Below are positions 19,162 through 38,198 of a DNA stretch of 64,000 nucleotides, piece after piece. Each line of letters begins with the position of its first letter. The first letter of the stretch is position 1. This DNA comes from Flavobacterium haoranii. Lineage in GTDB: Bacteria > Bacteroidota > Bacteroidia > Flavobacteriales > Flavobacteriaceae. The notes under the pieces were generated by a model. That model was not told the DNA's origin and ran no database searches. It saw only the letters and a program-made list of their open reading frames with translations. The stretch lies in assembly GCF_009363055.1 (NCBI RefSeq), contig NZ_CP045292.1:744001-808000 (forward strand), read 5' to 3'. The position numbers and the translations under genes were made by a program.

Positions 19162-20871
19162 CTAATTGTTTTGTATAATATTTTCTGCTGGATAATTCTT
19201 ATTTATAAAATATTGAAATAAAGTTGAAAGTAAAATAGTGAGTAGAGCACCAATGAAGTTTAACCACAAGAAACTTACAACATCAATATAATAAATATAA
19301 AAGATAATTAATTGAGAGATACTTGCTCCTAAAAAGATAGCTTTAGCTTTAATGTATTTTATATAAAAACCAACTAAAAATATCCCTAGAACAGTTCCGT
19401 AAAATATTGACCCAATTATGTTTACCAACTGAATTAAGTTTTCAAATAAAGTACCAATACACGCAAATAAAATAGCAATAATTCCCCAAAAAAGTGTAAA
19501 AAATTGTGTAGCATAAACATAATGTTTGTCAGATTTTTCTCCCACATTTCTTTTGTAAATATCAATAGCTGTTGTTGCAGCTAATGAATTTAAACCCGAA
19601 GCGCTCGAAGACATTGCAGCACTAAAAATAACTGCTAAAAGCAACCCTAAAAGTCCTTTTGGTAAATAATTTAGAATGAAATATAAAAATACATAATCTT
19701 TATCGTTAGTTTCAGAATTTGAATCTATTGACGCAATCAATTCTTTTGCTTCTTCACGTAAATCTTTTTCATTGTTAGCTAAAGTTACCATTTGTTTACG
19801 TAACGTAGGATTGTCATAATCGTTGTGTTGTAATTGCTCAACATATAACTGATTTACAACTTTTTTGTCAACGTTTATTTCTTCTAATTTTTTTTCTAAG
19901 GCTAAATATTCGGTTTTCTTATCAGATGCTTTAATTTTTGCTACGTTATTTGGATTAAAATGTAACGGTGTATCGTTAAATTGAAAAAATACAAATACTA
20001 AAACACCAGTAAGTAATATAAAAAACTGCATGGGAACTTTAAGAATACCATTCATAATTAATCCCATCTGACTTTCTTTTATGGACTTTCCTGTTAAATA
20101 ACGTCCAACTTGCGATTGATCGGTTCCAAAATATGAGAGCATTAGAAAAAATCCGCCAGTAATTCCGCTCCAAAAAGTATAACGAGTTTCTGGATTATAA
20201 GAGAAATCTAAAATATCCATTTTACCATTGGCACCTGCAACGTGTAAGGCATTTCCAAAGTCTAAATCATCAGGTAAATAGGAGAGAATGGTAAAAAAAG
20301 TAATAAACATTCCGCTCATAATCACAAACATTTGTTGTTTTTGCGTAACATTTACCGCTTTAGTTCCTCCTGAAACAGTATAAACGATAACTAAAATTCC
20401 AATTACAATATTTAGCATGGTTAGATTCCATCCTAATAAGGCTGATAATATAATTGAAGGAGCATAAATAGTTAATCCTGTACCTAATCCGCGTTGAATT
20501 AAAAATAAAATAGCAGCTAAAGAGCGCGTTTTTACATCAAAACGTTCTTCTAAATATTCATAAGCTGTATATACTTTAAGTTTATGATAAATAGGAATAA
20601 AAGTATAAGCAATAACAATCATGGCTATTGGTAAACCAAAATAGAATTGCACAAAACCCATTCCGTCATGGTAGGCTTGTCCTGGTGTAGAAAGAAAAGT
20701 AATAGCACTAGCTTGTGTTGCCATTACGGATATTCCTACTGTAAACCAAGGGGTTTCATTGTTATCTAAAAGATAGTCTTTTACATTTTCGCTTCCTTTC
20801 GTTTTTAAGGCTCCATAAACCACTATGAAAAGTAGTGTACAGATTAAAACAATCCAATCTAAACTTTCCAT
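19162..20871 (-). CDS. sodium:solute symporter (SSS family)
   Basis: A 569-residue inner-membrane transporter with about 13 predicted membrane helices. The SSS core is recognisable: TQASAITFLSTPGQAYHDGM early, RFDVKTRSLAAILFLIQRG, and SAAMSSSASGLNSLAATTAID in the second half. An unusual charged insertion of roughly 80 residues (about 310-390, Lys/Glu-rich and coiled-coil-like) interrupts the helices and probably projects from the membrane. Substrate is unknown. It is the last gene of an operon with PIG-L deacetylase and a 35-residue membrane protein; its ATG follows the small gene's stop after one base, so an amino-sugar or sugar-linked substrate is possible. Confidence 0.92.
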   Translation of the reverse strand: MESLDWIVLICTLLFIVVYGALKTKGSENVKDYLLDNNETPWFTVGISVMATQASAITFLSTPGQAYHDGMGFVQFYFGLPIAMIVIAYTFIPIYHKLKVYTAYEYLEERFDVKTRSLAAILFLIQRGLGTGLTIYAPSIILSALLGWNLTMLNIVIGILVIVYTVSGGTKAVNVTQKQQMFVIMSGMFITFFTILSYLPDDLDFGNALHVAGANGKMDILDFSYNPETRYTFWSGITGGFFLMLSYFGTDQSQVGRYLTGKSIKESQMGLIMNGILKVPMQFFILLTGVLVFVFFQFNDTPLHFNPNNVAKIKASDKKTEYLALEKKLEEINVDKKVVNQLYVEQLQHNDYDNPTLRKQMVTLANNEKDLREEAKELIASIDSNSETNDKDYVFLYFILNYLPKGLLGLLLAVIFSAAMSSSASGLNSLAATTAIDIYKRNVGEKSDKHYVYATQFFTLFWGIIAILFACIGTLFENLIQLVNIIGSIFYGTVLGIFLVGFYIKYIKAKAIFLGASISQLIIFYIYYIDVVSFLWLNFIGALLTILLSTLFQYFINKNYPAENIIQNN

Positions 20872-20872
20872 A

Positions 20873-20980
20873 TTATGAGTAAATTTCCATTAATAAATAA
20901 AAAAGCAAAATATAAAGCGCATTTAGTAATAATACTATCGTATAACTTTTTTTCCATTGATGTTTTTTGTTGTCTATCAT
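20873..20980 (-). CDS. 35-residue single-helix membrane protein (small ORF)
   Basis: A short frame of 35 codons: a charged N-terminus (MIDNKKHQWKKSY) and one hydrophobic helix (TIVLLLNALYILLFYLL) ending MEIYS. It fits exactly between the PIG-L and symporter genes: its ATG overlaps the PIG-L stop as ATGA, and its own TAA is one base before the symporter ATG. Such tight coupling on both sides is strong evidence that it is translated. It may be a small partner of the symporter, as DUF485- or DUF4212-type proteins are for other SSS carriers; this is inference. It is too short for ordinary gene finders. Confidence 0.75.
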   Translation of the reverse strand: MIDNKKHQWKKSYTIVLLLNALYILLFYLLMEIYS

Positions 20981-23418
20981 TGTTTTAATGCTATTAAATT
21001 TGCTAATAATTTATAAGCGCCGCTAACTCCTTCGGGTAATTCTCTAAAGAATGAAATTCCGGTGTAAATGTAATTTCCTTTTCCATATTTGGCTATAAGT
21101 AAACTTCCTTTAGTTTCGTCTTCGCCGTTGTCATGCATAGCTAATATAGGAATAAAATCATTATCCCATTTATTAGGAAAATATAAGCCTCTTTCTTGAA
21201 CCCAACCTTCAAAATCTTTTGATGTTATTTTATTAGGTGTATTTAAGACAGGATGATTAGGATGTATGAATTTTACTTCTGCATCTTCATTAGTTACTCG
21301 CTCTCTTGAAAGAGTAATTGGATATGGAGCTAAATTGTTAGTTAATAAATTATTAGTAGTGTTGTATTGAACTATTACATTACCTCCCTGATTTGTATAT
21401 TCAAATAGAATTTTATTCTTAAATTTAAGTTCATCTAAAACATTGAAAGCTCTAATTCCCACAATGACAGCATCAAATTTTTTAAGGTTTTCTAAGGTAA
21501 TTTCTTTAGGATTTATATAAGTAACTTTATAGTCTAAATTCTCTAAATTTTTACCAACTTCATCTCCAGCTCCCATGATGTAACCAATATTTTTACCTGT
21601 TGTTTTAATATCTAGATTAACAAATTTAGCAGAAGAAGTTTCAAGAATTGTTTGTTTTGGAATATGTTTATAATCAATTTGTATTAATGATTTATCGAAA
21701 ACTTTATCATTTGATTCTACAATTGCTTTAATGTTTACTTCAGAGTCGAAATCTGGAGAAGTAACATTGAAACTCACTAAGAAGGATTCATTTTTTCCAA
21801 CAACTGTTGTAGGAATCTTTTTTACATCTGAAATCCAACCGTTTGGCAATTGTAAGCTCACAACTCCTGAAGCATTCTCTTCAAATGCAGTTACTTTAAC
21901 CTGAACCTCTTTAGTTTGATTAGCACTAAACACGTATACATTTGAAGTTAGTTCTACTGCAAACTTTGGAACAACTACAAATGGGTTATAAGTTTCGCCA
22001 TCATTAGGCTCATTTTTCTTGAAACTAAGATTTTTTGTAATACTAAATTTTTGATTTTCGATTTCCAACTCAAAAACTACTGGAAACGGATTATTAAGTT
22101 CAGGTAAATTTCTTAAAGCAGAATTTGAAACGGTATACAAACCATTTTGTTGTGGCTCATTTAACCAAAATAAATTTGATAAAGGCCAATTTTCTGGAAT
22201 TTTAAATTCAAAGTTTTTGGTGTATTTTTCGTTATTATTTAATTGAATATTAACGTTTTGGTTGTTTTGGTTTAAGAAGAGAACAGTATTTAATTTAATT
22301 GTTGCATCACTTCTGTTTATTGCTTCGATAGAAATTTCGATATTTGAATTTGGTGTAGCTAATTCTACTGAACTAATAGCTTCTAAATACAAACCAGCAC
22401 AAGCTTCAATTATTGATTTTATTTCTTCAGTCTTATTTTTTTTCCAATGTTCGTCTTCAAGATTCTGAATCAATTGGTATGCTTTAACCAACTGAGGTAA
22501 ATGAGAAGCTGGATTTTTAAAATTGAAGTATTCTTGAATAGGAAGTAAAATTTTAGCAATTTCGTTTCCTCCTTTAATTCGGTTCCAAGAAGTGTCTATT
22601 CCTTCAAATAAATTATCTTTAGATGGTAAATTTCCTTTAATTAATTCTAAATATTCTAAATCGTCTCCACGTGTTCCAATAGAACCAAAACCTTGACATT
22701 TATGCTGACTACGACTTAATGCAGCAATTTCATGATTACTTTTTCCCAGAATAGGATAATAAACATTAGCATTTATTGATAATAATTTAGATTTATCTGC
22801 TTTGTTGAATTTTTCTTCGCTTCCATAAAACCACCATGAAGTATTAAAAAACAATCTTTTAGGTTTTACTTTAACTAAATCGTATGCTTCTAAACTTAAC
22901 ATTGCCGAAGCAGTATGATGTCCGTGAGTAGTTCCTGGCGTTCTATAATCGAAACGATTAATAATAATATCAGGTTGAAAATTTTCTATAGCTTGAACAA
23001 CATCGGCAAGTACTTCTTTTTTGTTCCAAATAGAGAAAGTTTCATTAGGTTCTATACTGTAACCAAAATCGTTTGCTCTAGTAAAATATTGTGTTCCGCC
23101 ATCAATTCTTCTAGCAGCTAAAAGTTCCTGAGTTCTAATAGCTCCAAGTTTTTCTCGCAATTCTGGACCAATTAAGTTTTGACCACCATCGCCACGAGTC
23201 AAAGATAAATAAGCAGTATTAGCATGATAATGATTTGAAAAATAGGTGATGAGTTTTGTGTTTTCATCATCTGGATGTGCCGCAACATATAAAACTTTTC
23301 CTAGAAAGTTAAGTTTTTGAATCTTTTCGTAAATTTCGTTAGTACTTGGTTTTTTGGGAGCTTGGGCAAATAATGTTGTAGTAAATAATATTGCTAAAAA
23401 GCTTATCTTTTTCATCAT
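20977..23418 (-). CDS. PIG-L family deacetylase (exported)
   Basis: An 813-residue protein with a signal peptide (about residues 1-19, ending LFAQ) and an N-terminal PIG-L/LmbE zinc hydrolase domain. The metal-binding motif AHPDDE is at residues 47-52, followed by LTRGDGGQNLIGPE and the later THGHHTAS motif. Residues about 350-813 are beta-rich and end in a glutamine-amidotransferase-like/ThuA-like region (GIRAFNVLDEL, GNVIVQYNTT). The enzyme probably deacetylates an N-acetylglucosamine-containing compound outside the cytoplasm. A -7 box at 23436-23443 precedes it. A start one codon later is equally possible. Confidence 0.88.
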   Translation of the reverse strand: MMKKISFLAILFTTTLFAQAPKKPSTNEIYEKIQKLNFLGKVLYVAAHPDDENTKLITYFSNHYHANTAYLSLTRGDGGQNLIGPELREKLGAIRTQELLAARRIDGGTQYFTRANDFGYSIEPNETFSIWNKKEVLADVVQAIENFQPDIIINRFDYRTPGTTHGHHTASAMLSLEAYDLVKVKPKRLFFNTSWWFYGSEEKFNKADKSKLLSINANVYYPILGKSNHEIAALSRSQHKCQGFGSIGTRGDDLEYLELIKGNLPSKDNLFEGIDTSWNRIKGGNEIAKILLPIQEYFNFKNPASHLPQLVKAYQLIQNLEDEHWKKNKTEEIKSIIEACAGLYLEAISSVELATPNSNIEISIEAINRSDATIKLNTVLFLNQNNQNVNIQLNNNEKYTKNFEFKIPENWPLSNLFWLNEPQQNGLYTVSNSALRNLPELNNPFPVVFELEIENQKFSITKNLSFKKNEPNDGETYNPFVVVPKFAVELTSNVYVFSANQTKEVQVKVTAFEENASGVVSLQLPNGWISDVKKIPTTVVGKNESFLVSFNVTSPDFDSEVNIKAIVESNDKVFDKSLIQIDYKHIPKQTILETSSAKFVNLDIKTTGKNIGYIMGAGDEVGKNLENLDYKVTYINPKEITLENLKKFDAVIVGIRAFNVLDELKFKNKILFEYTNQGGNVIVQYNTTNNLLTNNLAPYPITLSRERVTNEDAEVKFIHPNHPVLNTPNKITSKDFEGWVQERGLYFPNKWDNDFIPILAMHDNGEDETKGSLLIAKYGKGNYIYTGISFFRELPEGVSGAYKLLANLIALKQ

Positions 23419-23435
23419 AGTTTATTGGGTTTCAT

Positions 23436-23443
23436 CAAAATTA
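23436..23443 (-). promoter_or_regulatory. -7 box for the PIG-L/symporter operon
   Basis: Minus-strand TAATTTTG fits TAnnTTTG, 17 bases before the PIG-L ATG. Confidence 0.45.
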
Positions 23444-23446
23444 AAA

Positions 23447-23470
23447 AAAGGAAGTCAAAATACTTCCTTT
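23447..23470 (-). terminator. terminator after the mscS gene
   Basis: Stem AAAGGAAGT/ACTTCCTTT with flanking A- and T-runs, just downstream of the small mechanosensitive channel gene on the minus strand. Confidence 0.75.
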
Positions 23471-23492
23471 TTAAATTTTTTTTATGAATTGA

Positions 23493-24029
23493 TTAGTCTG
23501 TAAATTCGCTAATTTCCTTATGCTTTTTGATAACTGAAATCCCTTTTTGCATCAATAGATTGTTAGGATACGTTATGGTTTCTCCATCTATTGTTTTTAG
23601 TAAAATGTAAAAAGCCTTAATGTCTTCAATTTCAGCTTCAATAGGAAAATCTTTATCATGAATTTTGATAACATCTCCAATTTTAAAAGGATATGAAAAA
23701 AACAATACAATTCCTGCAGTAATATTACTTAATATAGACCATTGTGCAAATGAAGCTACACCTACAACAGCGAAAACAGATGAAATAAATAATAATATCT
23801 GGTCGCGTTTAACGCCCCATATAATAACAATACTTAAAATTGCTAAGACACCTAAAAGAATATTAATATATTTTATAATTAGATTGGTACGGTGTTCTAA
23901 TGCATCGTTTAAAGTTGCATATTTTATAACTATTTTAGCAATAATTGATTTTAATATTAAGAATACTATTAAAATAATAATTGTTAAAATCTCTTCTTGT
24001 AAATATGGGTTTTCAATTATTTTAAACAT
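23493..24029 (-). CDS. small mechanosensitive ion channel (MscS family)
   Basis: A 178-residue inner-membrane protein with about three hydrophobic helices (about residues 12-33, 50-73 and 80-110) followed by the MscS beta domain, recognised by FSYPFKIGDVIKIHDKDFPI and IDGETITYPNNLLMQKGI. It is much shorter than E. coli MscS (286 residues) because it lacks the C-terminal alpha/beta cage, a form common in Bacteroidota. It would relieve turgor on osmotic downshock. Its start overlaps the maf gene by 8 bases, in the mscS-maf-ubiA operon. Confidence 0.87.
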   Translation of the reverse strand: MFKIIENPYLQEEILTIIILIVFLILKSIIAKIVIKYATLNDALEHRTNLIIKYINILLGVLAILSIVIIWGVKRDQILLFISSVFAVVGVASFAQWSILSNITAGIVLFFSYPFKIGDVIKIHDKDFPIEAEIEDIKAFYILLKTIDGETITYPNNLLMQKGISVIKKHKEISEFTD

Positions 24030-24603
24030 GTTCTAATAATTTATCGTAAACTCTGTCAATTGGCATTCCTACAACATTTGCATAAGAACCTTCAATTTTA
24101 TCTAATCCTACTAATCCTATCCATTCTTGAATTCCGTAAGCACCTGCTTTGTCAAATGGTTTGTAGGTTTCTAAATAATAATGTAAAGCTTCATTCGAAA
24201 GGTTTTTGAAACTAACTTTGGTTACTTCGTAAAATGTATCAATTGAATTTGAAGTTTTAAAGCAAACAGATGTAATAACTTGATGGGTTTTTCCACACAT
24301 CGATTGTAACATATTAAAAGCATCGTTATAATCTTTTGGTTTTCCTAAAGCTTTATTTTCGTGCCAAACAATTGTATCGCTTGTAATGATAATTTCGTTA
24401 TCGGCTATTTCAGTGAAAGCATTAGCTTTTAATTCGGCTAAGAAATTTGTTATTGCTGATGCTTTTAGATGTTCAGGATAAATTTCTTCAACTTCTTTTA
24501 AACGAATCTCAAAATCAATATCTAATTCTTTAAAGAATTGTTGTCTTCTTGGCGAACCCGAAGCTAAAATAATTTGTTTATGTTGTAATTTTTCTCTAAG
24601 CAT
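24022..24603 (-). CDS. maf: Maf-family nucleotide pyrophosphatase
   Basis: A 193-residue Maf/HAM1-fold enzyme that hydrolyses dTTP/UTP or modified nucleotides to monophosphates and so cleans the nucleotide pool. The conserved opening LASGSPRR is at residues 14-21, the catalytic SDTIVW around 74-79, and GKPKDYNDAFNML and YGIQEWIG follow. The length is typical. It overlaps the genes on both sides by 8 bases, so translation is probably coupled with ubiA upstream and mscS downstream. Confidence 0.93.
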   Translation of the reverse strand: MLREKLQHKQIILASGSPRRQQFFKELDIDFEIRLKEVEEIYPEHLKASAITNFLAELKANAFTEIADNEIIITSDTIVWHENKALGKPKDYNDAFNMLQSMCGKTHQVITSVCFKTSNSIDTFYEVTKVSFKNLSNEALHYYLETYKPFDKAGAYGIQEWIGLVGLDKIEGSYANVVGMPIDRVYDKLLEHV

Positions 24604-25537
24604 TTGTACTTGTTATAGCATAAGTAATGACCCAAATTGAAAATATTCCGAAAAGTAAAACCAATTTTAATAGTAAACTTAAATTTTTGTAATCTTTTTG
24701 TGTTTTAGCTGACCAAGATTTGATTACAAAAAATAGGAGTGGAGCTGCTACAAAAAGTATTAAATAATACACTGCAATATCATACTGAGCAAGATTTTTA
24801 CTCATATAATAGGTAAGTATCGCGATTGCAGTAATTCCTATTGCAAAAGCTATTTTCATAGTTCTATTTTTTCCAATAAGAACTGGTAAAGTTGCAATTC
24901 CAGATGCGTAATCAGCATCAGTATCTTCAACATCTTTAACTATTTCGCGAATTAAATTAATGATAAATGCAAAAATGGCGTAATCTTTTAGAATTCCGAA
25001 AGTTTGTATCATTTGTTCTTTATTTCCGTCATAAATCATTGGAACTAAATCAAAAATTCCTAAAATGATGATACTAAAAGATAAAACTGCCGCAACTACA
25101 ACATTTCCTAAAAAGGCAATTTGTTTTAAAGTAGTTGAATAAACATATAACAAAGCTGCAATAACAATAAAAACAGAAGCAAAACTTGGTTTTTCAATTA
25201 CATTTGATAAATAAAAACCTAATCCAACTCCAAAAATATTCAATCCAACATATAAATTGTAAGCAGTTTTTTCAGAAATGGAAACTCCTATGATTCGCTT
25301 TTTAGCAATTTCATCAGTTTCTTGATCCATAATGTCGTTAATAACATAACCGGCAGCTGCTATTAGTATAGTAGACAAAACCAACAAAAAGAATTGAAAA
25401 TGATTTAAAGCTAAAAAATTAAAACTTTCTGTTATTGTTGTAAACGTTGCCGTTTTCATAAATGTATAACGAAATACATATTGCATTAAAGCAATCATAG
25501 CAAGGTTCTGTATGCGTATAAGTTTTAGGAAGTTCAT
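24596..25537 (-). CDS. UbiA-family prenyltransferase (geranylgeranylglycerol-phosphate geranylgeranyltransferase-like)
   Basis: A 313-residue polytopic membrane enzyme with about eight or nine helices. The two Asp-rich Mg-prenyl-diphosphate motifs are visible: NDIMDQETDE at about residues 67-76 and DVEDTDADYASG at about 202-213. Bacteroidota members are usually annotated as geranylgeranylglycerol-phosphate geranylgeranyltransferase; the acceptor is not proven and quinone or other prenyl acceptors remain possible. First gene of the ubiA-maf-mscS operon; REP-like repeats fill the region upstream. Confidence 0.85.
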   Translation of the reverse strand: MNFLKLIRIQNLAMIALMQYVFRYTFMKTATFTTITESFNFLALNHFQFFLLVLSTILIAAAGYVINDIMDQETDEIAKKRIIGVSISEKTAYNLYVGLNIFGVGLGFYLSNVIEKPSFASVFIVIAALLYVYSTTLKQIAFLGNVVVAAVLSFSIIILGIFDLVPMIYDGNKEQMIQTFGILKDYAIFAFIINLIREIVKDVEDTDADYASGIATLPVLIGKNRTMKIAFAIGITAIAILTYYMSKNLAQYDIAVYYLILFVAAPLLFFVIKSWSAKTQKDYKNLSLLLKLVLLFGIFSIWVITYAITSTNA

Positions 25538-25576
25538 TTTTTTGGTAAAAGGTTATTGGTAAAAGGTAATAGGTTT

Positions 25577-25600
25577 GTCAGGTCGAGCGGAGTCGAGACC
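25577..25600 (+). repeat. REP-like palindrome, copy A
   Basis: GTCA, then closing bases GG, TCGAG, loop CGGAG, TCGAGA, closing bases CC. It is the short-loop form of the family. It forms an inverted pair with copy B, with both GTCA ends outermost. Confidence 0.75.
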
Positions 25601-25629
25601 AAATATAATTTTAATTAGTTTTAATGTTA

Positions 25630-25676
25630 ACCACAAACGATGTTTGTTCCTCTTAATATCAAATGCTCGATGTGAC
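25630..25676 (-). repeat. REP-like palindrome, copy B (incomplete)
   Basis: On the minus strand it reads GTCA, CA, TCGAGC and then a body that matches copy C (42752-42792) over 41 bases with one mismatch (25630-25670). The far closing half TCGAGA is missing, so it is truncated or merged with copy A. The matching body contains the small hairpin ACAAAC/GTTTGT. Confidence 0.75.
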
Positions 25677-25684
25677 AATTAAAA

Positions 25685-26215
25685 TTAATCATACTTCGCA
25701 TCAAAATGTTCCATCCATTTATGCTGTACTTTCATTACTTGTTCAATAACATCTCGTACACATCCTGTTCCGCCATCTTTATGAGAAACATATTTTGAAA
25801 TTCCTTTTATTTCAGGAGCAGCATTTTGTGGGCATGTTGGTAAACCAACCAATTTCATCACGTGATAATCTGGAATATCATCGCCCATGTATAATACTTG
25901 TTCAGGTTTAATATTATAAATGTCACAATACTCTTTAAAGGTTTCCACTTTATCTGAAACGCCCAAATGAATATCGGTAATTCCTAAATTTCGTAAACGA
26001 ACACGAACACCTTCATTACTTCCTCCTGAAATAATACAAACATTATAACCATTTTCTACGGCGGCTTTCATAGCATAACCATCGCGAATGTTCATGTTTC
26101 GGAGCATTTCTCCTGTTTGGGTAACATGAATAGTTCCATCTGTTAAAACACCATCTACATCTAAAATAAATGTAGTGATGTCATTCATTAATTCTTTATA
26201 ACTCTTTTGCGACAT
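25685..26215 (-). CDS. kdsC: 3-deoxy-D-manno-octulosonate 8-phosphate phosphatase-like HAD hydrolase (KdsC family)
   Basis: A 176-residue capless HAD phosphatase of the KdsC/YrbI type. Motif I is LDVDGVLTDGTI (about residues 18-29), then VCIISGGSNEGVRVR (motif II), a Lys in SDKVETF and the MGDDIPDYHVM motif. The enzyme would release Kdo from Kdo-8-phosphate in lipopolysaccharide synthesis, upstream of KdsB (3818-4549). It overlaps the DUF2520 gene by 20 bases. Some KdsC-like proteins act in other sialic-acid-like pathways, so the symbol is a best guess. Confidence 0.88.
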   Translation of the reverse strand: MSQKSYKELMNDITTFILDVDGVLTDGTIHVTQTGEMLRNMNIRDGYAMKAAVENGYNVCIISGGSNEGVRVRLRNLGITDIHLGVSDKVETFKEYCDIYNIKPEQVLYMGDDIPDYHVMKLVGLPTCPQNAAPEIKGISKYVSHKDGGTGCVRDVIEQVMKVQHKWMEHFDAKYD

Positions 26216-26957
26216 TTTGTATCGATTGGGTTAATAATTTATAAATATCTTGATAATTTGAATCTTTTAAAAATTCAATATGCTTTTCAATAGTTTTGGT
26301 ATCATTTCGCAATGCTGGTCCTGTTTGCGCTTCTTTTGGAGAAAGGAAATTAATTTTATTGGCCACTTCCTGAATTAAAGGTTGTAAAACTTCAAACGGA
26401 ACATTATTAGTTGCACAAATTTCACTGCCAATAACGTACATATGATTCACAAAATTACTTACAAAAACAGCTGCTACATGTAAGCTTTTTCGTTGTTCCG
26501 ATGAAATATTGTAAACTTTATTTGAAATAGAGTTTGCTAATAGTTCTAAAGTCTTGTAATCTTCTTCGTTTTCAGCTTCTAAACACAATGGAATAGAAGA
26601 GAAGTCGACTTCCTTACTTTTAGAAAATGTTTGTAACGGGTAAAAAACACCTTTTCTATTTTTTGAACCCAAAACTTCTAAACTTGAAGTTCCTGAAGTA
26701 TGAACGACTAACTTATTTTTAAACGGAATTTGGCTTGAAACTTCATTTATAGCATTATCAGTTACTGAAATGATATAAACATCAACTTCTTGTAAAGCAT
26801 TGTAATCGTTAGTAATTTGTTCTTTTGGCAACAAATGTATAAGCGATTTTGGTTGGCGTGCAAAAGCTTGCACCAAAGAAACTTCTTTCGTTTGCAAAAA
26901 CACTTTAATTAAGTGTTGGGCGACATTACCACTACCAATTACCGTTACTTTTAACAT
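26196..26957 (-). CDS. Rossmann-like/DUF2520 domain protein
   Basis: A 253-residue protein with an N-terminal NAD(P)-binding Rossmann motif VTVIGSGNVAQHL (about residues 4-16) and a C-terminal DUF2520 helical domain (about 125-250). The layout is like F420-dependent oxidoreductase/pyrroline-5-carboxylate reductase-type dehydrogenases. The substrate is unknown. It overlaps the kdsC-like gene by 20 bases, a pairing I recall as common in Flavobacteriaceae, so co-transcription is likely. Confidence 0.85.
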   Translation of the reverse strand: MLKVTVIGSGNVAQHLIKVFLQTKEVSLVQAFARQPKSLIHLLPKEQITNDYNALQEVDVYIISVTDNAINEVSSQIPFKNKLVVHTSGTSSLEVLGSKNRKGVFYPLQTFSKSKEVDFSSIPLCLEAENEEDYKTLELLANSISNKVYNISSEQRKSLHVAAVFVSNFVNHMYVIGSEICATNNVPFEVLQPLIQEVANKINFLSPKEAQTGPALRNDTKTIEKHIEFLKDSNYQDIYKLLTQSIQNVAKEL

Positions 26958-27097
26958 GTTGCTAAATTAGTGAATTTTTAGTATTATTATTTATCACAAT
27001 ACTTCGAATCACGTGTTATAAAATTTAAAGTTGATTATCAATTTGTTAAATAGTTTATTTTTAGATAAGTTTTAAAAGTTAATTGAATATAGATATG

Positions 27098-27105
27098 TAC
27101 ATTTG
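27098..27105 (+). promoter_or_regulatory. -7 box for the T9SS cargo gene
   Basis: TACATTTG matches TAnnTTTG, 24 bases before the ATG at 27129. No clear -33 is seen. Confidence 0.45.
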
Positions 27106-27128
27106 AGTTTATCTTTATTCTTTTAAAT

Positions 27129-28925
27129 ATGAAGAAATTTTACTTTTTTGTACTATTTTTCTTTTCAATTTTTGCAAATAGCCAAGTTATAATGTACTTA
27201 TATGGAAATTTACAAGATACTAATAATGATAGTATAATTTCTCCTGGTGATACTATAATTTATTCAATATATTTACAAGTAAGTAATGTTTCTATAGGAA
27301 ATGCAATTTTTACAGATTCCCTTACAAATTTTATGTATGACTCTAGTCAGTATGTTATTCAACCTGGTTATCATGTATATAACGGCCCAATTTATACTAT
27401 TAATCAGGCAGATATTGATTTTGGATATGTATATAATTCAGTGTTTTTAAACGGAAATACAATAAGTCCATTTCAACAAATATCTATTTCTTCTATTGAT
27501 GATGTAATATGTCCGTTTTGTCCAATTGATCCATTATGTCCAAATTGTACAGTTACACCTTTAGTTTCGTATCCTACAGGAAATAATAATGTTCAAGGAA
27601 ATATAAAATATGATTTTAATTCTAATGGATGCGATATTAATGATTTTGACTTCTCAAATCTAAATTTTAGTTTTTCTAGTAGTAATATTACCTTTTCTTT
27701 TTATCCAAATACTAATGGACATTTTATTACTTATTTAAACGATGGTTTATATTCTATAACTCCAAATTTAGAAAACTCTACCTATTTCAATATTTCACCA
27801 ACCAATTTTATAGTAGATTTTCCTTCACAAGCAAGTCCTTTTACGCAAGATTTTTGCGTTACAGCAAATGGTGTACATTCTGATGTTGAAATTATGATTG
27901 TACCAACAACTTCTGCTCGTCCAGGTTTTGATGCAAATTATAAGCTGGTTTATAGAAACAAAGGAAACCAAGTTGAAAATGGAAGTATTTCTTTAACTTT
28001 TGATGATTCGGTTTTAGATTATTTGTCTTCAAATCCTATTTATAATAGTTTAGCAACCAATAGTTTTATTTGGAATTATACAAATTTACAACCATTTGAA
28101 ACCAGAGAAATTGAAATTTCATTTAATGTAAATTCTCCAATGGAATCTCCAGCTGTAAATAACGGAGATATTTTAAATTACACAGCTACTATTACAACAG
28201 CAAATACAGATGAAACTCCTGTAGATAATACATTCACTTTAAACCAAACAGTTGTTGGTTCTTATGATCCAAATGATAAAACATGTTTAGAAGGTGAGTA
28301 TGTGTCATCAAATGTTGTTGGAAAATACGTTCATTATGTAATTCGTTTTGAAAATACAGGAACCTATCCTGCAGAAAATATTGTAGTTAAAGATATGATT
28401 GATATTTCTAAGTTTGATATTTCAACTTTAGTGCCATTACATGGAAGTCATGAGTTTTACACAAGAATTAAAGACAATAAAGTAGAATTCATTTTTGAAA
28501 ACATCAATTTAGATTTTAACGATGCTACAAACGATGGTTATGTTGCGTTTAAAATTAAAACATTACCAACTTTGAATATTGGGGATTCTTTTAGTAATAA
28601 TGCAAATATTTATTTCGATTATAATTTTCCAATTACGACGAATACATACAACACAACAATTAATAATGTTCTAAACAATCAAGATTTTGTTTTTGAAAAC
28701 GAATTTGTATTGTATCCAAATCCTGCAAATGAAATTATTAATATTTCGACTAAAAATCAAACAGAAATCAATTCAGTTGAAATCTATAATTTAGTAGGAC
28801 AAATTGTATTAGCAATTCCAAATACTACAAATAAAATTGATGTTTCAAACTTAGAAACGGGAACGTATTTTATTAAAGTGAATACAGAAAAGGGTAGTAC
28901 TACGACGAAGTTTGTGAAAGAATAG
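27129..28925 (+). CDS. T9SS type A sorting domain-containing secreted protein
   Basis: A 598-residue secreted protein. It has a signal peptide (about residues 1-19, ending FANSQ), a Cys/Pro-rich stretch at 128-140 (CPFCPIDPLCPNC), beta-sandwich DUF11/DUF7619-like repeats with the hallmark GSYDPNDK at 377-384, and a C-terminal T9SS type A sorting domain (about 525-598; YPNPANEIINI ... GTYFIKVNTEKG). It would be exported by Sec, moved across the outer membrane by the type IX system and anchored or released. Its specific role is unknown. It has its own promoter and terminator. Confidence 0.9.
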   Translation: MKKFYFFVLFFFSIFANSQVIMYLYGNLQDTNNDSIISPGDTIIYSIYLQVSNVSIGNAIFTDSLTNFMYDSSQYVIQPGYHVYNGPIYTINQADIDFGYVYNSVFLNGNTISPFQQISISSIDDVICPFCPIDPLCPNCTVTPLVSYPTGNNNVQGNIKYDFNSNGCDINDFDFSNLNFSFSSSNITFSFYPNTNGHFITYLNDGLYSITPNLENSTYFNISPTNFIVDFPSQASPFTQDFCVTANGVHSDVEIMIVPTTSARPGFDANYKLVYRNKGNQVENGSISLTFDDSVLDYLSSNPIYNSLATNSFIWNYTNLQPFETREIEISFNVNSPMESPAVNNGDILNYTATITTANTDETPVDNTFTLNQTVVGSYDPNDKTCLEGEYVSSNVVGKYVHYVIRFENTGTYPAENIVVKDMIDISKFDISTLVPLHGSHEFYTRIKDNKVEFIFENINLDFNDATNDGYVAFKIKTLPTLNIGDSFSNNANIYFDYNFPITTNTYNTTINNVLNNQDFVFENEFVLYPNPANEIINISTKNQTEINSVEIYNLVGQIVLAIPNTTNKIDVSNLETGTYFIKVNTEKGSTTTKFVKE

Positions 28926-35663: not shown

Positions 35664-38198
35664 TTAACTAATGTAATTCCAAATATTCTTCTTTTTACTC
35701 AATTCTAAGAAGATTTGTTTCATTTTTTGATGTTCGGGTTTTGTCATATTCGGATCTTCTTTTAAAATCTTTATGGCTATATGACGTGCCAATTGTAAAA
35801 TGTCTCTGTCTTTAACTAAATCGGCAATTTGTAAATTGAGCACACCACTTTGTTGGGTTCCCATTATATCACCCGGACCACGAAGTTTTAAATCGACTTC
35901 GGCAATTTCAAAACCATCATTGGTTGCACACATGGTTTCCATTCGTGTTTTACTATCATTACTCAATTTGTGTCCCGTCATTAAAATACAATAACTCTGT
36001 TCGGCGCCACGACCTACGCGACCACGTAACTGATGCAATTGCGACAACCCAAAACGTTCGGCACTTTCAATAACCATAACGGAAGCATTAGGAACATTTA
36101 CACCAACTTCAATAACGGTTGTTGCGACCATAATATTTGTTTTTCCTTCTGCAAAACGTCGCATTTCTTCTTCTTTATCTGCTGGTTTCATTTTTCCGTG
36201 AACAATAGAAATGGAATATTGTGGCAACGGAAAATCGCGTGAAATACTTTCGTAACCATCCATCAAATCTTTATAATCCATTTTTTCAGATTCTTGAATC
36301 AATGGATATACGATATAAATTTGACGCCCTTTGGCAATTTCGTCTTTTAAGAACTTCCAAACTTTTAATCGGTTATTATCAAATCTATGAACAGTTTGTA
36401 TTGGTTTTCGTCCTGGTGGCAATTCGTCAATCACAGAAATATCCAAATCGCCATACATGCTCATGGCTAATGTTCGCGGAATAGGAGTAGCGGTCATCAC
36501 CAAAACGTGAGGTGGAATCGCCCCACTAATCTCCCCGGAGGGGAGACTTTCCAGGGTTTGACTTATTTTGTTAAGTGTATTATTAGTTTCATTAATGACT
36601 TCTTCATTTGTAAAGCGAATTACTTTAAATCCAATTTCGTTAAGAATTTGAGTTCTTAATTCGTCTGCTTCACGTTGCAATATCGTGTTGTGGTAACCAC
36701 CATCAACTTCAATAATTAATTTTTTTTCTATGCAAACAAAGTCAGCAATAAAAACATCAATTATATGTTGACGTCTAAATTTATAACCTAGTTTCTTATT
36801 ACGTAATTCTTCCCAAAGCAAGGTTTCAGCTTTTGTATTGTTCTTTTTGTTTTGAGATTTAAGTTCCTTTAAAATGTTGTACGTAGAAGGACGAGCCGTC
36901 ATATATTTTTGCACAACTTTTTGGACTTCCTTCCTTTGGAAGGATGGAGGAAGGCTTCCTTTCTTCCACAACTTACTTCTTTGTTCAACACCAAAACGAT
37001 GTTGTTCGTCAATAATAGCTAAACCTAAATTATGAAATTGAACTTTGTCTTCTAAAATGGCGTGTGTACCAATTAAAATATCTAAACTTCCGTTTTCGAG
37101 TTCTTCGTGAATAATTCTTCTTTCGGCAGTTTTAGTCGAACCTGTTAATAGTTTGATGTTGATATTTAGGTTTTTAGCCAAATCAGAAAGTCCGTTGAAA
37201 TGTTGTGTAGCCAAAATTTCTGTTGGCGCCATCAAACAACTTTGGAATCCGTTGTCTTTAGCAATCAACATCGAAAGTAAAGCGACAATCGTTTTTCCGG
37301 AACCCACATCGCCTTGTAATAAACGATTCATTTGAGCGTTACTTCCGAGATCATTTCTGATTTCTTTGATTACGCGTTTTTGTGCATTAGTCAGTTCAAA
37401 AGGCAAATGGTTTTGGTAGAAATCGTTAAAGTTATCACCAACAATTTCAAACGGATGTCCTTTTATTTTGTGTTTTCTAATTAAGTTTTTAGTAATTAAT
37501 TGTAATTGAATGTAAAACAATTCTTCAAACTTTAATCGGAATTGTGCTTTAGCTAATAATTCTTGACTTTTAGGAAAATGAATATTAAATAGAGCCGCAT
37601 TTTTCGGAATTAATTGTAATTCTTGTAGGATGCTTTCCGGTAAAGTTTCAGTAAATAATGCTTGTGTTTCCACAAACAATTGCTGCATCATTTTATTGAT
37701 GACTTTATTCGTAATGTTTTTGTTGGCTAATTTTTCCGTACTTGGATAAACCGGTTGCATCGCACTTCGTAAACTCGCTTTGTGTTCGTCTAACAATTCC
37801 ATTTCTGGATGCGCCATATTGAACATTCCATTAAAAGAAGTTACTTTTCCAAAAATTACATAAGGAACATTAATTTTTAAACTTTCTTTTATCCATTTAT
37901 GGCCTTGAAACCAAACCAATTCCATTTCACCAGTATCATCAATAAATGTGGCAACTAAACGCTTGCCTCTTTTTTGTTCAACGGTTTTTATATGAATGAT
38001 TTTACCCACAATTTGAACTTCCGAATTACTATTAACCAACTGATTGATTTTGTAATAACGAGTCCTATCGATGTATCGATTGGGATATAAATTCAGTAAA
38101 TCTCCATAACGATGAATGTCTAACTCCTTGCGAAGCAAATCGCCACGTTGTGGACCAACGCCTTTTAAGTATTCTATAGGAGTGTCGAGTAAATTCAT
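35664..38198 (-). CDS. recG: ATP-dependent DNA helicase RecG interrupted in frame by a DUF559 endonuclease domain
   Basis: An 844-residue RecG, which regresses stalled replication forks. The wedge/OB domain is at about residues 50-150, Walker A GDVGSGKT at 296-303, DEQH at 397-400, motif III TATPIPRTL at 569-577, and the RGRVGRG motif at 725-731. Normal RecG is close to 700 residues. The extra 146 or so residues (about 415-560) between DEQH and motif III form a DUF559/Vsr-like nuclease. Removing them rejoins KLWKKG to IPPHVLVMT. There are no stops, so the fusion should be translated; whether helicase activity survives is unknown. Intein splice motifs are absent. Confidence 0.93.
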   Translation of the reverse strand: MNLLDTPIEYLKGVGPQRGDLLRKELDIHRYGDLLNLYPNRYIDRTRYYKINQLVNSNSEVQIVGKIIHIKTVEQKRGKRLVATFIDDTGEMELVWFQGHKWIKESLKINVPYVIFGKVTSFNGMFNMAHPEMELLDEHKASLRSAMQPVYPSTEKLANKNITNKVINKMMQQLFVETQALFTETLPESILQELQLIPKNAALFNIHFPKSQELLAKAQFRLKFEELFYIQLQLITKNLIRKHKIKGHPFEIVGDNFNDFYQNHLPFELTNAQKRVIKEIRNDLGSNAQMNRLLQGDVGSGKTIVALLSMLIAKDNGFQSCLMAPTEILATQHFNGLSDLAKNLNINIKLLTGSTKTAERRIIHEELENGSLDILIGTHAILEDKVQFHNLGLAIIDEQHRFGVEQRSKLWKKGSLPPSFQRKEVQKVVQKYMTARPSTYNILKELKSQNKKNNTKAETLLWEELRNKKLGYKFRRQHIIDVFIADFVCIEKKLIIEVDGGYHNTILQREADELRTQILNEIGFKVIRFTNEEVINETNNTLNKISQTLESLPSGEISGAIPPHVLVMTATPIPRTLAMSMYGDLDISVIDELPPGRKPIQTVHRFDNNRLKVWKFLKDEIAKGRQIYIVYPLIQESEKMDYKDLMDGYESISRDFPLPQYSISIVHGKMKPADKEEEMRRFAEGKTNIMVATTVIEVGVNVPNASVMVIESAERFGLSQLHQLRGRVGRGAEQSYCILMTGHKLSNDSKTRMETMCATNDGFEIAEVDLKLRGPGDIMGTQQSGVLNLQIADLVKDRDILQLARHIAIKILKEDPNMTKPEHQKMKQIFLELSKKKNIWNYIS
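36520..36552 (+). repeat. terminal inverted repeat of the DUF559 cassette (3' side of recG)
   Basis: Contains the perfect hairpin TCTCCCC/GGGGAGA with loop GGA (36530-36546). Starts GCC and ends CTTTCC; aligns with the other end in inverted orientation. Confidence 0.75.
36923..36955 (-). repeat. terminal inverted repeat of the DUF559 cassette (5' side of recG)
   Basis: On the + strand it contains CCTTCC/GGAAGG with loop TTT. On the minus strand it starts GCC and ends AGTCC, like the partner at 36520-36552, but the stem bases have changed together. Confidence 0.75.

Follow-up and report, generated by a model that had tools for sequence, protein, structure and literature searches.

A hairpin-bounded DUF559 nuclease insert in recG of Flavobacterium haoranii, a probable homing-type element translated within its host protein

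Genes for homing nucleases are believed to survive within other genes because they are spliced out, and their usual home is a self-splicing intron or an intein, with free-standing forms existing as well. Repetitive extragenic palindromes (REPs), in turn, are thought to be moved by REP-associated tyrosine transposases (RAYTs) and to be their non-autonomous offspring. Vsr-like homing endonucleases are already known (PMC3943268), and PMC9403480 places a DUF559 gene among the EDxHD homing endonucleases, in an intein context. PMC3733652 describes in-frame palindromes in functional genes, i.e., Rickettsia palindromic elements (RPEs) and intragenic REPs, with a stress on genes for DNA synthesis and repair, and presents RAYTs as HUH tyrosine transposases with GTAG-tagged hairpins. 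For DUF559 itself, PMC12907096 ties the Vsr-like DUF559 protein VsrA of Caulobacter to DNA damage, and PMC12308824 reports DUF559 segments as recombination hotspots in Legionella. Here we describe a DUF559 nuclease domain that lies in frame inside recG of Flavobacterium haoranii, in a stretch of 64,000 nucleotides of contig NZ_CP045292.1 (hereafter the window). Judging from sequence, we consider it rather probable that this block is a homing-type mobile element of ca. 435 nt that is translated in the host protein with no sign of splicing. Its features are the following:

Window: positions 744001-808000 of the contig, in a single-contig genome of 2.87 Mb
35664-38198, minus strand: recG, the host gene, a single open reading frame (ORF) of 844 aa that is open throughout, the insert lying between helicase domains
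36519-36959, minus strand: putatively mobile in-frame insert, RecG residues 414-560, in which 147 codons replace 2 codons of the empty site
36923-36956, minus strand: 5' end of the element, pyrimidine-rich foot AGCCTTCCTCCA followed by the hairpin TCCTTCC-AAA-GGAAGGA
36900-36902, minus strand: internal ATG, unconserved in relatives
36552-36851, minus strand: DUF559/Vsr-like nuclease core (PF04480), RecG residues 450-549
36519-36548, minus strand: 3' end of the element, an inverted copy with the hairpin TCTCCCC-TCC-GGGGAGA followed by the foot TTAGTGGGGC

The Pfam order of domains in this RecG runs from wedge and DEAD domains over DUF559 (residues 450-549) to the helicase C-terminal domains, and the solved RecG of Thermotoga maritima (1gm5) aligns to it in two stretches (query residues 4-416 and 565-811) that lie two residues apart in the solved chain. 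Both results bear out the original prediction, made from the letters of the window, of a single 844-residue ORF with a complete DUF559 domain between the helicase halves. The insert occupies a single fixed point between helicase motifs II and III, is free of stop codons, has a length that is a multiple of three and carries short linkers at each end. In close relatives, most of which are named Flavobacterium in our search for recG neighbours, the empty site is unbroken and reads EQRSKLWKKND-IPPHVLVMTATPIPRTL (i.e., KLWKKND-IPPHVL), with a net gain at recG of 435 nt (441 nt replacing 6) over these near relatives. The expectation that removing 438 nt would restore a RecG of the usual size was therefore close, but the KLWKKG-IPPHVL junction expected along with it is not what relatives have. 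The residues at the junctions vary among RecG inserts, which start with K-A-S, K-G-S, K-G-G and others and end with GGAT, GGAI, SGAI and others, and because the filler bases vary at both junctions, alignment with uninterrupted relatives defines no target-site duplication at recG. Five empty recG sites (L023, L040, L044, L057 and L078) read KA[AST]I or KAAL instead of KN[DE]I before PPH, which might be near-precise excision footprints or equally the pre-insertion allele. The block had also been credited with a start codon of its own at 36902, a position at which methionine is found in only 13 of the 78 aligned RecG inserts (14 of 78 for any methionine ahead of the nuclease core). With this codon unconserved, we reject independent expression from it, and the nuclease is probably produced within the RecG protein. 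The window gene is the genome's one full-length RecG match; a second match (query residues 250-410) falls into a 1069-aa frame at 2588336 that is probably Mfd.

The nuclease domain matches PF04480 with 109.5 bits (E 9.9e-32) against a curated Pfam cut-off of 20.6. The E, D and H of its EVDGGYH motif and the next D are invariant in all 78 aligned RecG inserts, and the ratio of nonsynonymous to synonymous substitutions (dN/dS) is mostly 0.1-0.2, so that by these measures purifying selection acts on the nuclease and its active-site region does not vary. Among the folds listed, the nearest solved one of known function is the homing endonuclease I-Bth0305I (PDB 3r3p), in an alignment that matches the E and the last D and places the middle D opposite N and the H opposite W. 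A search with the insert alone (best 120 of 2482 matches) was headed by five matches at 62-67% identity, of which the flanks mark four as RecG fragments, whereas the fifth has the ends of a RecG insert; the others listed are DUF559 proteins at no more than 61%. No Hint or intein domain was found in RecG (Pfam) and no intron family at E<=1 (Rfam), the sole Rfam match being SECIS_5 with 22.1 bits against a gathering score of 50. The original prediction had likewise seen no intein splice residues, in keeping with both the Pfam result and the varying junctions.

The domain thus has the Vsr-like fold of EDxHD homing endonucleases, but the setting differs from that of I-Bth0305I, which the PDB names a mobile intron protein, i.e., one in a spliced element, whereas the recG insert has neither a splicing domain nor an intron: its nuclease, for which cleavage is a prediction, would remain in the host protein, and the unit is bordered by hairpin ends. 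Like an intein, the insert is translated in frame in a conserved gene and appears to be mobile at its site, but it lacks a protein-splicing domain, has variable junctions and seems to remain. Stand-alone DUF559 proteins share the same domain but are free ORFs of ca. 120-200 aa.

In the direction of recG, the insert starts with AGCC-TTCCTCCA-TCCTTCC-AAA-GGAAGGA and finishes with TCTCCCC-TCC-GGGGAGA-TTAGTGGGGC, two ends that are imperfect inverted copies of each other and each consist of a pyrimidine-rich foot and a hairpin. The 5' hairpin spans 36928-36944, with 36944-36938 pairing with 36934-36928 around an AAA loop, and the 3' hairpin spans 36530-36546, with 36546-36540 pairing with 36536-36530 around a TCC loop. 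We built a covariance model from 13 ends of AddA-like, leucyl-tRNA synthetase (LeuRS), MCM and HsdR elements, representing one stem class and no RecG sequence, and at E<=1 it gave exactly two matches in the 64-kb window, the two ends of the recG insert (36927-36955, minus strand, E 0.018; 36517-36549, plus strand, E 0.41). Because a model made from non-recG ends picks out those two places alone, the insert ends exceed chance, and the hairpin-bearing inverted ends that had been described from the letters stand. It had further been noted that stem bases differ yet stay complementary, which holds across relatives for the 5' hairpin. In 11 RecG inserts (10 distinct sequences, with 500 shuffles as control), 94.3% of the cells of the 5' stem are paired and its covariation score is 0.359, neither value being reached in any of the 500 shuffles, and every slid version scores below the true alignment. 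Three of the seven pairs change on both sides, as many as in 68 of 500 shuffles, and the four further pair types are not above shuffling (500/500). The 3' stem is nearly invariant, with one cell changed on both sides (48/500 shuffles), and says little on this question.

Among the best 80 of 420 named recG loci, 79 are readable at the site: nine have the full insert, three a short in-frame insert (L039, L074 and L084, of which L039 and L084 read as one hairpin unit) and 67 neither, including L030, which is two codons longer. The full insert is thus absent from 70 of the 79 loci rather than shared by all relatives. On a RecG tree of 92 rows, the ten inserts, that of the window among them, need 8 changes, at least 5 of them forced by well-supported branches, and shuffled labels were equally clustered in 22 of 500 cases. 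Between the window and L010 (JAIXHM010000047.1), the insert is identical at 438/438 nt, with 1095/1224 and 764/852 nt identical in the flanks, and L011, which is about as close to the window, has an empty recG site. The synonymous divergence of host and insert in the five closest pairs is 0.636 and 0, 0.259 and 0.022, 0.708 and 0.202, 0.445 and 0.273, and 1.091 and 0.813, respectively, a difference that is significant in the first three (1e-19, 6e-7 and 2e-7), and insert divergence lies below host divergence in 38 of 44 estimable, non-independent pairs (45 in all). Among 78 full RecG fusions, found in a set of 121 proteins, the nearest relative by host is also the nearest by insert in 28, with extremes such as P0029 and P0107 (hosts 97.6% and inserts 71.3% identical) or P0098 and P0111 (hosts 76.3%, inserts 98.0%), and host and insert identities still correlate (Spearman 0.53). 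By these comparisons, the sequence history of the insert is uncoupled from that of recG. A fixed point with occupied and empty alleles and an apparent horizontal spread at that site, uncoupled from the host gene, are what the recG insert has in common with EDxHD homing endonucleases.

Elements with related ends are present in other genes as well. Within the window's genus, 135 of 249 genomes have DUF559 (102 at E<1e-10), and within its phylum 222 of 395 do. Among the 150 matches listed for each survey, 92 in the genus and 51 in the phylum sit in frames of at least 250 aa. The hosts of 122 long frames, which were chosen for length and hence give no estimate of frequency, were named from one Pfam-scanned member per group or by reading the sequence: MetH (35), LeuRS (35), AddA-like proteins (16), HsdR (5), Type ISP proteins (4), RecG (4), Eco57I-like proteins (4), coproporphyrinogen oxidase (4), HsdM (2), methylmalonyl-CoA mutase (2) and 11 singles. 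Clear insertions are those in MetH (at two sites), LeuRS, the AddA-like UvrD helicase and RecG, with the other hosts being less sure. Restriction-modification proteins may have DUF559 as a true domain of their own, and a stop-to-stop frame with DUF559 ahead of the host domain is what coproporphyrinogen oxidase, HisA and RNase H show; we claim neither set as insertions. Isoleucyl-tRNA synthetase (IleRS)-like hosts came from the protein search and were recognized by their domains and flanks. Hairpins scoring at least 10 flank 83 of 121 elements on both sides (L231 was left out for a run of N), compared to 25 of 493 single control windows and 43 of 726 shuffled flanks. Host and insert again disagree in these genes, as in the LeuRS pair L192 and L203 with hosts at 91.5% and inserts at 60.4% identity, and the nearest relative is the same by both in 13 of 34 cases for LeuRS, 9 of 20 for MetH and 4 of 15 for AddA-like hosts, with host and insert identities correlating positively overall in all three.

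At the LeuRS point between GKSVGAMV and VFTTRPDTIFG, closely related hosts have quite different palindromes. Nuclease-free hairpin pairs or single copies sit at some of the points that also take nuclease elements, namely in IleRS, MetH site 2 and RecG: the IleRS point DTTxVAxFK / FLAWTTTPW holds a nuclease element in P0003-P0005 and two hairpins without nuclease in L269, and at MetH site 2 full elements, hairpin pairs and short forms all occur. The comparison with RPEs that the original prediction had drawn is therefore apt, as in-frame palindromes of that kind, some at the same points as the nuclease elements, are present here in presumably functional genes. RPEs and intragenic REPs resemble the nuclease-free forms as palindromic DNA in frame inside genes, but they carry no gene (PMC3733652), whereas the element described here encodes a conserved nuclease. 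Several single cases extend the range of forms. The LeuRS inserts of L218 and L221 are at the usual point with another 5' repeat class (GTCATCCCgAGCGCAGTCGAG-like, read as NVIPSAVEG or NVIPSAVEE), and P0006 and P0127, both IleRS-like, have DUF559 at a further point that follows LIDVWFDSGAMPYAQ. Two DUF559 elements share one ORF at MetH sites 1 and 2 of L122 and L135 and in LeuRS of L200, and the HsdR subunit of L228 has both GIY-YIG (251-316) and DUF559 (443-547) between its own domains.

In a nuclease tree of 162 domains and 114 columns with many unresolved forks, site labels need 28 changes compared to 111 for shuffled labels (two incomplete MetH rows, L179 and L148, are labelled site 1 there, and their flanks read site 2). 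Sister lineages sit at fixed points of MetH, LeuRS, IleRS-like and AddA-like genes. All 19 RecG rows fall into a single group, supported at 99% in the Shimodaira-Hasegawa-like approximate likelihood ratio test (SH-aLRT), and the nearest relative is at the same site for 35 of 35 LeuRS1 and 15 of 16 AddA-like elements. The tree thus suggests that nuclease lineage largely follows insertion site and that the elements of a given gene mostly form a lineage of their own, exchanged at a fixed site. Such site-bound lineages fit the behaviour of a homing element more than that of a freely jumping cassette, so that of the mobile, frame-preserving cassette proposed originally, mobility and frame stand and free jumping gives way to homing-like exchange at a fixed site.

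The hairpins also form a REP-like family. Matches to the hairpin model occur in 112 of 249 genomes of the same genus, with counts per genome that are lower bounds since at most 28 candidates were scored in each, a ceiling that several relatives reach. Genomes with at least 10 matches comprise 40 with strong DUF559 and 4 without, compared to 62 and 143 among those with fewer (Fisher 4e-14), and those with at least 20 comprise 28 and 1. The top-scoring form is near TCCTCACCCCAACCCTCTCCAAAGGAGAGGGAG. Of the 30 best hairpin loci, 26 could be assessed (L261, L262, L268 and L270 have the hairpin off-centre and were not counted), with 15 outside any frame of at least 180 aa, nine near a frame end and two well inside a frame, in the IleRS-like gene of L269 and the porphobilinogen deaminase gene of L286. 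As in the REP/RAYT system, a nuclease gene is flanked by inverted hairpins, nuclease-free copies are present in the genome and copy number follows the gene; yet the partner here is a PD-(D/E)XK/Vsr-like DUF559 protein and not an HUH tyrosine transposase, and the hairpin feet (about CCTCNCCCCAR) had neither a GTAG nor a CGTC tag in the ends that were read. Among stand-alone DUF559 genes, 11 of 22 short-ORF copies have palindromes scoring at least 10 on both sides (a count without control), and in several the foot points inward and the hairpin outward, opposite to the arrangement of the in-frame elements.

We propose that the element is a Vsr-like nuclease gene (DUF559, EDxHD-type) without stops, flanked by a pair of inverted REP-like hairpins whose translation gives short linkers. 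Carrier DNA would enter a cell, the nuclease would cut or otherwise target the empty allele, and repair would copy the element in, with in-frame arrivals in tolerant loops alone persisting. The hairpins would be the element's ends and would be recognized by nucleases of this family; they may serve as the nuclease's substrate, in which case short hairpin elements would be non-autonomous relatives; by analogy with REPs and RAYTs, nuclease-free hairpins would be the element's non-autonomous offspring. Life inside a needed gene would be tolerable as translated rather than spliced protein, at points beside conserved motifs.

A transposon-like element, in which DUF559 recognizes the terminal hairpins and moves the whole unit as well as short hairpin pairs by cut or copy, is unlikely, though we take it as a serious possibility; it would account for the recurrent insertion points by insert-tolerant loops and a short target preference. 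Free transposition would not be expected to leave nuclease lineages that are largely site-bound, no target-site duplication can be defined, and to our knowledge DUF559 is not a known transposase. The insert could instead be a passive passenger, spread at a fixed site by nothing but ordinary homologous recombination between species with no part played by the nuclease. Such recombination does occur, as another nearly identical tract is common to the window and L010 in a gene that has no insert, but this explanation is improbable given the discordance of insert and host in four different host genes, inserts far younger than their flanks in three of the five closest pairs and the association of hairpins with DUF559. 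Moreover, a dead passenger would not keep catalytic residues invariant in 78 of 78 inserts and dN/dS mostly at 0.1-0.2.

Very improbable is an ancestral or domesticated RecG domain, i.e., a DUF559 acquired by RecG in a single event, acting together with the helicase and repeatedly lost since. The RecG inserts do form one group at one point with a conserved active-site region, but the insert is much younger than the host in close pairs and has been swapped between hosts, and the same type of element resides in methionine synthase and tRNA synthetases, hosts for which a role tied to a helicase would be meaningless. We reject an ancient RecG domain on the identity of the window and L010 inserts, the discordance of host and insert and the divergence of the closest pairs. 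Inteins typically reside in frame close to conserved motifs, and a spliced element of unusual form (intein or self-splicing intron) might be considered, all the more as DUF559-type nucleases occur in an intein context (PMC9403480). Such an element is scarcely credible here, as nuclease and linkers fill the 147 codons, the junction residues vary and neither Pfam (no intein or Hint domain) nor Rfam (no intron family at E<=1) lends support to an intein or intron.

Several observations weigh against the homing-type reading that we prefer. Mobility is read from sequence, with cutting, homing or transposition not observed, and palindromic ends are not in themselves needed for homing. In two of the five closest pairs, host and insert do not differ significantly in age (0.06 and 0.22). 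The second near-identical tract of the window and L010, ca. 500 bp at about 40454-39900 in a peptidase gene, is probably a recent recombination; the gene is of the M1 type, and the tract includes a 329-nt identical run amid about 10% divergence. Ordinary homologous recombination thus joins these two lineages and could also have carried the insert, whose own tract (36511-36983) is singled out only by edges that match the insert within ca. 25 bp. Long-range homing repair would often leave a co-conversion tract, and none is seen around the recG insert. With this caution, the case for mobility rests on several pairs and hosts together. At least one side is below the hairpin threshold in 38 of 121 elements, among them 9 of 16 AddA-like, 3 of 4 Eco57I-like and 2 of 2 HsdM elements. 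Not all sites are clades in the nuclease tree (LeuRS1 needs 6 changes, MetH1 5 and MetH2 3), over which elements that are free or of other kinds are dispersed. The association of DUF559 with hairpin number builds on lower-bound counts and takes no account of shared ancestry. In the window's own genome, the model has only two matches at E<=1 among the 150 of 270 candidates that were scored, one of them the insert's own end; high-copy REP behaviour is thus not found among these scored candidates, and high hairpin copy number is a property of relatives.

Beyond recG, the homing-type reading extends to a class of translated, unspliced homing elements in Bacteroidota, a proposition that we hold to be evenly balanced: a Vsr-like nuclease between REP-like hairpins would invade fixed points of housekeeping genes (recG, metH, leuS, ileS, addA-like and others), stay as a domain of the host protein, form one lineage per point, spread there between species and seed nuclease-free hairpins. 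If true, this would add to introns and inteins a third way for a homing nuclease to persist inside a needed gene, as the same kind of nuclease is found here in core genes of many species and several hosts with no sign of splicing. It would likewise suggest a partner enzyme for an abundant family of REP-like palindromes. The class would account for odd annotations of "DUF559 domain-containing" RecG, MetH and tRNA synthetases, offer a testable function for a family still labelled as unknown and provide natural experiments on how much foreign protein core enzymes tolerate. In the open-access literature, with most subscription journals outside this scope, we found no description of DUF559 with palindromes or as unspliced in-frame inserts, nor of a nuclease-bearing, hairpin-bounded element unspliced in core genes. 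In-frame palindromes, Vsr-like homing endonucleases and the assignment of a DUF559 gene to the EDxHD family are already known, and what appears to be new is the nuclease-bearing, hairpin-bounded unit residing unspliced in core genes.

Two further loci of the F. haoranii genome have features related to those of the recG insert. At ca. 1080800 (L259), a 466-aa ORF for a VapE-like or primase protein contains an in-frame palindrome coding for SSSSLSGRSGGAKKK and a second one close to the end of the ORF, so this genome too has in-frame hairpins without a nuclease. At 20000-27500 (L007), three tandem DUF559 ORFs, two of them with equal score, follow each other at distances of 864-865 bp (22421, 23285 and 24150), and each has the palindrome TCCCCTTGAGGGGA upstream with a GGGGTGT foot inside, the foot-in arrangement of the free-standing type.

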